Assembly (NCBI RefSeq): GCF_017355875.1
Contig: NZ_JAFEWC010000004.1
Span: 138,989-202,988, forward strand
Direction of reading: 5' to 3'
Length of the DNA stretch: 64,000 nucleotides
Source of the DNA: Aridibaculum aurantiacum
GTDB taxonomy: Bacteria > Bacteroidota > Bacteroidia > Chitinophagales > Chitinophagaceae
The number at the start of each line of letters is the position of its first letter. Within the stretch, counting starts at the first letter, position 1. Below, in pieces: positions 49,792 to 52,855 of this stretch. The position numbers and the translations under genes were made by a program. The notes under the pieces were generated by a model. The model was not told the DNA's origin and searched no databases. It was given only the letters and a program-made list of their open reading frames with translations.

Positions 49792-50226
49792 ATGTCTATA
49801 CGCTTCTCTTATGCCGATGTTTCTACTATTCCTTTGAAGAACAAAAAGGTGGTTAAACTATTCATCCAGGAGCTTTTTCAACTGGAGAACAAACCTCTTT
49901 CACAACTTAACTATGTATTCTGCAGCGACGAATACCTTCTGCAGATCAATAAAGACCATCTTCAGCACGATTATTATACTGATATCATCACTTTCGATCT
50001 TACTGACCCATCTTCAGAAGGTACTATTGGGGAGATATACATTAGCGTGGATCGGGTAAAGGATAATGCTAATGATCATAAGGTTACCTCAACTAATGAA
50101 CTGTTACGGGTAATCTTCCATGGTGCCTTGCACCTGTGCGGCTATGGAGACAAAACGAATCGTGAAATAACAATTATGAGGGAAAAAGAGGATCATTATT
50201 TACGTTTATTTGAGAAACGTTTATAA
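49792..50226 (+). CDS. ybeY: rRNA-maturation endoribonuclease YbeY
   Basis: The 144-residue protein starts MSIRFSYADVSTIPLKNK; an ATG eleven codons upstream adds residues uncharacteristic of the family. The key motif is VIFHGALHLCGYGDKTNREI (HGxLHLxGYxD), which binds the zinc. A DIITFDLTD stretch is also conserved. YbeY processes 16S rRNA ends and helps ribosome quality control. The stop is 4 nt before the start of the CAP gene, so they are likely co-transcribed. Confidence 0.95.
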   Translation: MSIRFSYADVSTIPLKNKKVVKLFIQELFQLENKPLSQLNYVFCSDEYLLQINKDHLQHDYYTDIITFDLTDPSSEGTIGEIYISVDRVKDNANDHKVTSTNELLRVIFHGALHLCGYGDKTNREITIMREKEDHYLRLFEKRL

Positions 50227-50230
50227 CCTG

Positions 50231-50902
50231 ATGTTCCACGTGAAACCCCTGTTTTTCCTGTTATTACTGGCTCCTGTTCTTTCTTTTGGTCAACATTTTA
50301 GTACAAGCACCATTGAAGTTCGTGCTATGCCTAATATGCCAGCAAGAGATTTGGGTATTGAAGCCTTTTTGTACTCTTTTCCTGAAACCAAATCCATGCC
50401 TGCTGATGTTAGGGAGTGGTTTTATTGGACCAATTTCAGCAGGAGCAAGCCTCGAGTGTTCTGGGACAGTGTAGTGGCACCTATTCTTTCTACTCATCCA
50501 AACCTCAGAACCTCCTATGCAGCTAGTTTAAAGAAGGATCTTTATGCTACCGGTCCCTTAGAGATGCTGAAACCTAATGCTATTCTTTCTTCTCTTGCCC
50601 AAGCACATGCTAATGAGCTAAAGAAGCGGAATGCCCCTCCTTCTCATACTTCTCCTTCTGGTGCTACCTTCCAGGATAGGATGGTAAAAGGAGGAATAGA
50701 GAAATGTGCAGGCGAAAACATCAGTTTTGGCCCTTCTAATACCATCTTAGCCCTTGTTTTTCTATACATAGATGAAGGAATACCAGATTTGGGGCACAGG
50801 AAATCCCTGCTTAATAGTTCATACAAGGAAATGGGCGTAGGAATTTCAGCCTATAACAACGGTAGTTTTATGGTAATTCAAGACTTTTCATGTTTACAGT
50901 AG
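50231..50902 (+). CDS. CAP (SCP-like) domain exported protein
   Basis: The product from the ATG at MFHVKPLFFLLLLAPVLSFG has a signal peptide ending at FGQ and is 223 residues. The CAP domain is seen in LSSLAQAHANELKKRNAPPS, HTSPSGATFQDRM, CAGENISFGPSN and IPDLGHRKSLLNSSYKEMGV, giving the His/Glu motifs of the family. Its role is unknown in bacteria. The parS-like 16-mer overlaps the first codons (FHVKP is its translation). A perfect parS lies 11 nt after the stop. Confidence 0.85.
   Translation: MFHVKPLFFLLLLAPVLSFGQHFSTSTIEVRAMPNMPARDLGIEAFLYSFPETKSMPADVREWFYWTNFSRSKPRVFWDSVVAPILSTHPNLRTSYAASLKKDLYATGPLEMLKPNAILSSLAQAHANELKKRNAPPSHTSPSGATFQDRMVKGGIEKCAGENISFGPSNTILALVFLYIDEGIPDLGHRKSLLNSSYKEMGVGISAYNNGSFMVIQDFSCLQ
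50232..50247. other. parS-like centromere site 1
   Basis: TGTTCCACGTGAAACC matches the bacterial ParB-binding site TGTTNCACGTGAAACA at 15 of 16 positions. It overlaps the first five codons of the CAP gene. With the second site it forms a pair 681 bp apart. Confidence 0.75.
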
Positions 50903-50912
50903 CTTTTGCTGC

Positions 50913-50928
50913 TGTTCCACGTGAAACA
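50913..50928. other. parS centromere site 2 (perfect match)
   Basis: TGTTCCACGTGAAACA is an exact match to the conserved 16-bp parS consensus, lying between the CAP gene and mnmG. By chance such a sequence is not expected in 64 kb. ParB should bind it; parA and parB are not in the window. Confidence 0.9.
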
Positions 50929-50937
50929 ATTCATTTA

Positions 50938-50975
50938 AAAGATAAACCTCCTCATAGGTTTATCTTTGTTTTTTT
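50938..50975 (+). terminator. Strong hairpin with T tract directly before mnmG
   Basis: A perfect 12-bp stem (AAAGATAAACCT / AGGTTTATCTTT) with a 6-nt loop is followed by a T tract and ends 8 nt before the mnmG ATG. The right arm also contains TATCTTTG, a TAnnTTTG promoter box. It may end the CAP transcript or attenuate mnmG. Confidence 0.75.
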
Positions 50976-50983
50976 AATAGAGA

Positions 50984-52855
50984 ATGATGTTTAAAGAATA
51001 TGATGTAATAGTGGTTGGTGCTGGTCATGCTGGTTGTGAAGCAGCAGCAGCGGCCGCCAACTTGGGTAGTAAGGTGTTGTTGGTTACAATGAATATGCAA
51101 ACCATTGCCCAAATGAGCTGTAACCCGGCAATGGGTGGTATAGCTAAAGGTCAGATTGTAAGAGAAATTGATGCTTTAGGTGGTTACAGTGGTATAGTTA
51201 CAGATGCCAGCCTCATTCAGTTCAGGATGTTGAACAGGAGTAAAGGTCCTGCAATGTGGAGCCCTAGGGCACAAAGTGATAGGATGCTGTTCGCCCAGAA
51301 GTGGCGTGAAATGCTTGAAAATACTCCAAACGTTGACTTTTACCAGGATAATGTAGTGTCTATCATCGTAGAAGGAGAAAGGGCTTGTGGGGTAGTGACT
51401 GGTTTAGGTCATTCTATTCGTTCAAAATCTGTGGTTGTAACCAGTGGAACCTTCCTGAATGGCGTTATCCATATAGGAGAAAAACGTTTTGGTGGTGGTA
51501 GAATGGCAGAAAAAGCCTCTACAGGCATTACTGAACAGCTGGTTGAACTAGGTTTTGAGAGCGATAGGCTGAAAACAGGTACGCCTCCACGTATAGATGG
51601 AAGAAGCCTTGACTACAGCAAAATGGAAGAGCAGAAGGGCGATGATGAGGTTGTAGGCTTCTCTTTTATGGATGTTCCTAAGATCAAACCTGAACAACAA
51701 AGAAGCTGCTGGATAACCTATACATCTCCTGAAGTACATGAAATGCTGAAGACAGGCTTTGACCGGTCACCAATGTATGCAGGAAGAATAGAAGGAGTAG
51801 GTCCACGCTATTGCCCTAGTATTGAGGATAAGATCAACAGGTTTGCAGAGAGGGAGCGCCACCAGCTGTTTGTAGAGCCAGAAGGCTTCAATACAGTGGA
51901 GATCTATGTAAATGGTTTTTCTACCTCGTTGCCTGAAGATGTTCAATACGCAGCTTTACGTATGGTTCCTGGTTTTGGAAATGTAAGGATGTTCCGTCCA
52001 GGATATGCTATTGAATATGATTATTTTCCACCTACACAGTTGAAGTATTCCTTAGAAACCAAAAAGATCTCACACCTATTCTTTGCCGGGCAGATCAACG
52101 GTACCACAGGGTATGAAGAAGCTGCATGCCAGGGATTGATGGCTGGAATAAATGCGCATCAAAAGGCAGCGGAACTGGAACCATTCATCTTAAAAAGAAG
52201 TGAAGCATATATAGGTGTATTAATTGACGACCTCATTAGTAAAGGAACTGACGAACCTTACAGGATGTTCACCAGCCGTGCTGAATACCGTACGCTGCTG
52301 CGACAGGACAATGCAGATCTTCGTCTTACTGAACTTAGCTACAGGCTTGGACTTGCTACGCAGGAAAGAATGGAGAAGGTTCGGGATAAGCAGCATAAAG
52401 TAGAAGCGCTAAAGCTGCTGGTAAAAGATTATTCAGTAGAACCAGAAGAAATAAATCATTACCTGAAAAAGGTTGGCTCTGCACCAATCAACCAAAAGCA
52501 GAAGCTGAACCAGTTGATGCTAAGACCGTCTATAGATATGGCCGGGCTTATTTCTGCATCTCCAAAGCTGCAGGAGTTGCTCAAAGATTTTCCTGCTGAA
52601 GTGGTAGAACAAGTAGAGATACAGGTAAAGTATGATGTGTATATCAATAAAGAAAAAGAACTGGTGGCGCGGATGAGCCAGATGGAAGAACTTGAAATTC
52701 CTGAAGCTTTTAATTATGATAGAGTAATGTCTTTATCGAACGAGGCGCGGCAGAAATTTCTGAAAGTTCGTCCACGCACACTAGGACAGGCCAGTAGAAT
52801 TAGTGGTGTTAATCCTAGTGATGTTCAAATACTTATGGTATATATGGGTCGATAA
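50984..52855 (+). CDS. mnmG: tRNA uridine-5-carboxymethylaminomethyl modification enzyme MnmG (GidA)
   Basis: The 623-residue protein has the FAD-binding start YDVIVVGAGHAGCEAAAAAA, then MSCNPAMGGIAKGQIVREID, LKTGTPPRIDGRSLDYSKM and FMDVPKIKP, all typical of MnmG. The middle segment DYFPPTQLKYSLETKKI and the C-terminal helical region, ending in the QASRISGVNPSDVQILMVYM helix, are also conserved. With MnmE it modifies U34 of certain tRNAs. Two ATGs are adjacent; either could start it. The gene is commonly near the replication origin. tRNA-Phe follows. Confidence 0.97.
   Translation: MMFKEYDVIVVGAGHAGCEAAAAAANLGSKVLLVTMNMQTIAQMSCNPAMGGIAKGQIVREIDALGGYSGIVTDASLIQFRMLNRSKGPAMWSPRAQSDRMLFAQKWREMLENTPNVDFYQDNVVSIIVEGERACGVVTGLGHSIRSKSVVVTSGTFLNGVIHIGEKRFGGGRMAEKASTGITEQLVELGFESDRLKTGTPPRIDGRSLDYSKMEEQKGDDEVVGFSFMDVPKIKPEQQRSCWITYTSPEVHEMLKTGFDRSPMYAGRIEGVGPRYCPSIEDKINRFAERERHQLFVEPEGFNTVEIYVNGFSTSLPEDVQYAALRMVPGFGNVRMFRPGYAIEYDYFPPTQLKYSLETKKISHLFFAGQINGTTGYEEAACQGLMAGINAHQKAAELEPFILKRSEAYIGVLIDDLISKGTDEPYRMFTSRAEYRTLLRQDNADLRLTELSYRLGLATQERMEKVRDKQHKVEALKLLVKDYSVEPEEINHYLKKVGSAPINQKQKLNQLMLRPSIDMAGLISASPKLQELLKDFPAEVVEQVEIQVKYDVYINKEKELVARMSQMEELEIPEAFNYDRVMSLSNEARQKFLKVRPRTLGQASRISGVNPSDVQILMVYMGR

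Follow-up and report, generated by a model that had tools for sequence, protein, structure and literature searches.

In the model ParABS systems, ParB loads at parS sites and spreads over the adjacent DNA, ParA moves the bound ParB, and Smc is recruited by ParB. It is common, but not defining, for chromosomal parS sites to lie near the parAB genes. The sites follow a 16-bp consensus, which we take to be TGTTNCACGTGAAACA or its palindromic variants. In Bacillus subtilis, parS-359 lies inside parB (available excerpt of PMC4442127), and in Pseudomonas aeruginosa, parS1 and parS2 are intragenic (available excerpt of PMC5521831). A Hi-C study of 12 gut bacteria, among them Bacteroides caecimuris, gives the consensus in the form TGTTTCACGTGAAACA and reports, in the sections available, that parS clusters at the origin, which is not systematically at dnaA (PMC10197239). 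Because the origin was placed there by parS plus skew, that study is not fully independent support for an origin location of the sites described below; the same sections make no mention of mnmG or Chitinophagaceae.

The window, meaning the whole stretch of 64,000 nucleotides that was analyzed, corresponds to bases 138989–202988 of contig C4 in a genome of 4,856,584 bases and five contigs. It contains two parS-like 16-mers beside mnmG, in a run of features that all read on the forward strand. The first, TGTTCCACGTGAAACC (parS1, 50232–50247), has one mismatch to the consensus, and ybeY (49792–50226) is its upstream neighbor. The second, TGTTCCACGTGAAACA (parS2, 50913–50928), is an exact match and lies between the stop of a CAP gene (50231–50902) and mnmG (gidA, 50984–52855). 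YbeY, CAP and MnmG were identified by Pfam. The CAP protein scored 48.5 bits against PF00188 (gathering score 21.1), its start resembles a signal peptide, and H136, E159 and H186 were invariant among 18 aligned proteins, these His/Glu/His residues presumably having a functional role. The ATG of the CAP gene (50231–50233) is covered by parS1 where the two overlap, and a GTG in the same frame (50240–50242) lies inside the site. Between parS2 and mnmG, immediately upstream of the latter, there is a terminator-like hairpin with a T run after it (50938–50967; fold −13.3 kcal/mol, z −5.35); a scan for such hairpins found one, with 1.2 expected from shuffled versions of the region. The original prediction had described both 16-mers at these positions, with the first overlapping the CAP start, and this description was accurate.

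When the whole genome was searched with one mismatch to the consensus allowed, parS1 and parS2, 681 bp apart, were the only places found, both at the mnmG locus. Many equal copies across the chromosome, a pattern that would speak against an origin location, were ruled out by the same search. The pair agrees with chromosomal parS in matching the 16-bp consensus at zero (parS2) and one (parS1) mismatch and in being few and clustered. Judging from the sequence, the two 16-mers are very probably chromosomal parS sites, the centromere of bacteria, and the chromosome, which is Segetibacter-like, would carry them in its origin domain.

The same genome encodes a single protein that scored over the ParB cut-off, on contig C3. 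It carries N-terminal, HTH and dimerization domains, and a ParA-type ATPase (AAA_31) is encoded 98 bp upstream of its gene. The dnaA gene is on C3 too, apart from parAB, and a full-length Smc is encoded on C1, whereas Bacteroides is said to rely on unidentified SMC complexes (available sections of PMC10197239). The locus resembles the chromosomal ParABS systems of B. subtilis (Spo0J/parS), Caulobacter and Pseudomonas in its 16-bp palindromic consensus, the clustering of the sites and the presence of ParB, ParA and Smc in the genome, and probably in its position in the origin domain. It differs from them in that the sites are tied to mnmG. They are not close to parAB, parB being on C3 and the sites on C4, and in seven one-contig genomes of the family (G021, G017, G106, G104, G049, G109 and G004, contigs taken as circular), parB and the mnmG-linked site are 0.74–3.3 Mb apart. 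If the components act as in the model systems, ParB encoded on another contig would load at parS1 and parS2 as a CTP-dependent clamp and spread across ybeY, CAP and mnmG; ParA would then move ParB, so that segregation begins with the freshly replicated origin region, and ParB would recruit Smc.

The cumulative GC skew of C4 (364 kb) had a broad minimum at ≈160–255 kb, with near-equal dips at ≈176 and ≈248 kb, and the sites, at 189 kb, fall within it. Samples from the other contigs were noisy: C3 was positive in 6/6, C1 was positive in 8/12 with the last two negative, and the one sample of C2 was near zero; C5 (1.4 kb) was left out. Eight strict DnaA boxes and no cluster of them were found on C4 with the E. 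coli-type box. In the complete genome of a relative, G021 (3.34 Mb), the skew was taken in 20 samples of 20 kb, giving a minimum at 620 kb and a maximum at 2.24 Mb. The parS sites and mnmG of this genome are at 631 kb, ≈11 kb from the sampled minimum, and the skew switches sign from the 610 kb sample to the 650 kb one. Along the rising arm, one of the samples (1.66 Mb) was negative, against the trend. As far as the skew tells, the predicted placement of the segment in the origin domain is supported, more firmly by G021 than by the genome itself, since the C4 minimum contains the sites but is broad and has two dips.

Within the genus, 10/10 genomes had a site of at most one mismatch. Measured against the standard variants, the site at the CAP start had at most one mismatch in the window and in all nine named loci with a CAP relative (seven Segetibacter and two Chitinophagales or Chitinophagaceae), and so did the mnmG-side site in the window and eight of the nine, the remaining one (L260) having two mismatches. 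The nine named loci are presumably from the same species as the other nine genus genomes, so the two sets are not independent.

Beyond the genus, we examined the matches listed, which are genomes read in context and no random sample, some short loci showing only one side of mnmG. Among these, 109 of 116 genomes had an exact site inside mnmG or no more than 1 kb from it. The family accounted for 50 of 50, the site being within 100 bp or inside in 38, and genomes with 18 other family codes for 59 of 66, all among the matches listed. In the latter 59, within the same listed matches, the site was only upstream of mnmG in 27, only downstream in 20 and on both sides in 12, so that in these 12 mnmG is bracketed. 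Outside the family, parS often begins 0–26 bp past the mnmG stop codon (e.g., L263, L292, L293 and L294). Relatives of this genome's ParB were absent from all 40 phylum loci searched (L263–L302). An exact search found no site in 27 of 99 phylum genomes, weaker sites having been sought in G004 and G033 only. Overall, parS tracks mnmG well beyond the genus while, in the family at least, parAB sits elsewhere.

The seven non-family genomes that departed from this arrangement included one (G147) whose site borders ybeY at the edge of a contig. In the other six, from families f2, f9 and f48, the site is not beside mnmG: it is ≈25–27 kb away and flanked by other genes in all three f9 genomes (L287, L288 and L289), 118 kb away in G296, and on a different contig from mnmG in G185 and G447. 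No par genes were present among the ten neighbors scanned at these exceptional sites.

The linkage to mnmG might be a matter of hitch-hiking, in which parS needs proximity to oriC, mnmG happens to lie there and adjacency itself is not selected. The proximity of mnmG to the skew minimum in G021 fits this explanation, as do the three f9 genomes, in which parS is off mnmG yet within some tens of kilobases of it. However, the site is within 100 bp of mnmG in 53 of the 66 non-family genomes (among the matches listed), which is tighter than the tens of kilobases that origin proximity needs, and we give hitch-hiking about an even chance of being correct. It concerns why the sites are beside mnmG, not what they are, and is compatible with their being origin-domain parS.

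Across the family, a site with at most one mismatch was found in 83 of 117 genomes. Loci were examined for 58 of these, and 55 have such a site on the mnmG locus, while G042, G096 and G112 have only isolated one-mismatch matches away from mnmG. Five of the 60 loci L067–L126 (L073, L077, L086, L125 and L126) contain an isolated one-mismatch match but no mnmG and were taken as background. The other 34 genomes all encode ParB, and mnmG was found in 31 of them. When the mnmG loci were scored against the four standard variants, 19 of the 30 read had a site of at most two mismatches upstream of mnmG, compared to 0.17% expected per locus; of the remaining 11, five had a three-mismatch site only and six had none at up to three mismatches. 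These six (L186, L187, L190, L191, L195 and L203) thus encode ParB but show no parS-like 16-mer in the mnmG locus read.

The overlap between parS and the CAP start was also recurrent. In 18 of 20 CAP loci, the window included, the CAP start carries an in-frame site; this count was made by homology to the CAP protein, free of any motif filter, and dropped none of the 18. The exceptions were L102, without parS, and L127, with the site just 5′ of the gene. An ATG overlaps parS exactly as in the window in 11 of the 18, and in four (L057, L060, L072 and L107) another ATG lies upstream. The last three (L056, L098 and L117) have no in-frame ATG, GTG or TTG open upstream of the GTG inside parS, and their start must therefore be this GTG or a rare start such as ATT or ATC. 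Read from the GTG, the proteins begin with M-K and a hydrophobic stretch, as signal peptides usually do. The true start of CAP is probably GTG 50240 inside parS1 (MKPLFFLLLLAPVLSFGQ...), and parS1 would in that case supply the start region of CAP, probably with both its start codon (the GTG) and the signal-peptide lysine.

CAC GTG was kept in 18/18 CAP-start sites and AAA in 17/18, although synonymous codons could take their place. Other invariant CAP residues are encoded by two to six codons each; this codon table is partly circular, as its loci were picked by the parS motif. The conservation at the CAP start looks to be at the DNA level. It had been proposed that the site forces the residues FHVKP and that site and signal peptide evolved together. 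The first proposal is only partly right: the GTG is the only ordinary start codon in three relatives, and should this start hold generally, the protein would lack FH and the site would force the lysine alone. The second is not quite right either, since the conservation appears to belong to the DNA and the gene probably begins inside the site. The sites sit in gene-dense junctions, and the DNA word would thus be accommodated inside coding sequence.

In a sister lineage, the word occupies five codons of mnmG itself. In 14 family genomes (L074, L075, L076, L078, L084, L085, L097, L099, L103, L104, L105, L111, L112 and L115), parS is at nucleotide +383 of mnmG, covering codons 129–133. It reads GTT TCA CGT GGA ACA (V-S-R-G-T) in 11 of these, V-S-R-E-T in L104 and L115, and V-P-R-G-T in L076; L076 and L115 have a second site at +1598. 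No ybeY was found in the stretch read of this basal Chitinophagaceae group. A quick MnmG tree of 85 family rows places the 14 genes in a basal part of the family, and the label needs two changes on it. L091 belongs to the same part and has neither the site nor the V-S-R-G-T residues, and no gene in the basal part of the tree spells V-S-R-G-T by other codons. Among 379 mnmG columns (M and W excluded) in which 12 or more of the 14 genes share a residue, only 11 used a single codon, four of them being parS codons 129, 130, 131 and 133; as the 14 genes were picked for carrying the site, the codon table alone is no proof of selection on the DNA. The sites at the CAP start and inside mnmG are like the intragenic parS of B. 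subtilis and P. aeruginosa in being written inside a protein-coding gene. As far as the available parts of those reports go, they are unlike them in covering the translation start of CAP and, in the sister lineage, in holding a fixed codon position in MnmG in 14 genomes.

The sites could also be primarily operators, at which ParB or some other reader of the CACGTG palindrome controls ybeY, CAP and mnmG, with the centromere role secondary. We consider this improbable. The covered CAP start in 18 of 20 loci would be in keeping with it, and in P. aeruginosa, genes next to the intergenic parS3 and parS4 are repressed by ParB, but native ParB was without such an effect on those flanking the intragenic parS1 and parS2 of that species (both from the available part of PMC5521831). 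A single operator role does not predict that the sites track mnmG without CAP, with other genes or none between, downstream of mnmG or inside it. Moreover, the 16-mer matches the general parS consensus, and ParABS is present in the genome. By analogy with the intergenic sites of P. aeruginosa, it is possible that ParB affects CAP or mnmG.

Reading the 16-mers as origin-domain parS, a known kind of element, the sites would mostly have stayed beside mnmG across the phylum, with parAB elsewhere in the family at least. This suggests a centromere staying put while its own par genes move. A more far-reaching idea, which we put forward tentatively and regard as unlikely, is that in Bacteroidota the centromere belongs to the mnmG locus as such, having remained there when parAB and dnaA moved and having become part of coding DNA (the CAP start codon and MnmG codons 129–133); ParB loading might then tie the segregation of the origin to how ybeY, CAP and mnmG are expressed. 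One DNA word would in either gene serve two constraints, a protein start or codons on the one hand and ParB loading on the other. As in the gut bacteria mapped by Hi-C, Bacteroidota included, the parS location is probably at the origin and not necessarily at dnaA (available sections of PMC10197239), and since dnaA can lie elsewhere in this phylum, mnmG together with the 16-mer would be a simple landmark for the region of the origin. We found no description of the linkage between parS and mnmG in the literature searched; most subscription papers were outside this search, which does not show absence from print.

For 4.86 Mb, a simple composition model predicted 0.005 exact matches to the four standard variants, and 0.24 places when up to one mismatch to any of them was allowed. 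In the window, there were five strand-wise matches at three places with up to three mismatches, compared to 0.58 expected, and five were reached in 0 of 100 shuffles. At two mismatches, the genome contained three further places, one on C1 and two on C3. The reversed control pattern gave as many matches as the parS pattern at up to two mismatches (six each), so the genome matches at two mismatches are background. The control also had one match in the genome at up to one mismatch; a single isolated site is therefore uninformative, while two at 681 bp, one of them exact, are informative. Chance matches to a palindrome, which this background and the one close match of the control might suggest, can be dismissed given a closely spaced pair with an exact member, kept across the genus, where so small a fraction of an exact site was expected. 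Elsewhere in the window, between 56257 and 63097, the open reading frames resemble by eye an arabinose cluster, with a kinase, an epimerase, an isomerase, a sodium-solute transporter and a NUDIX-type regulator.
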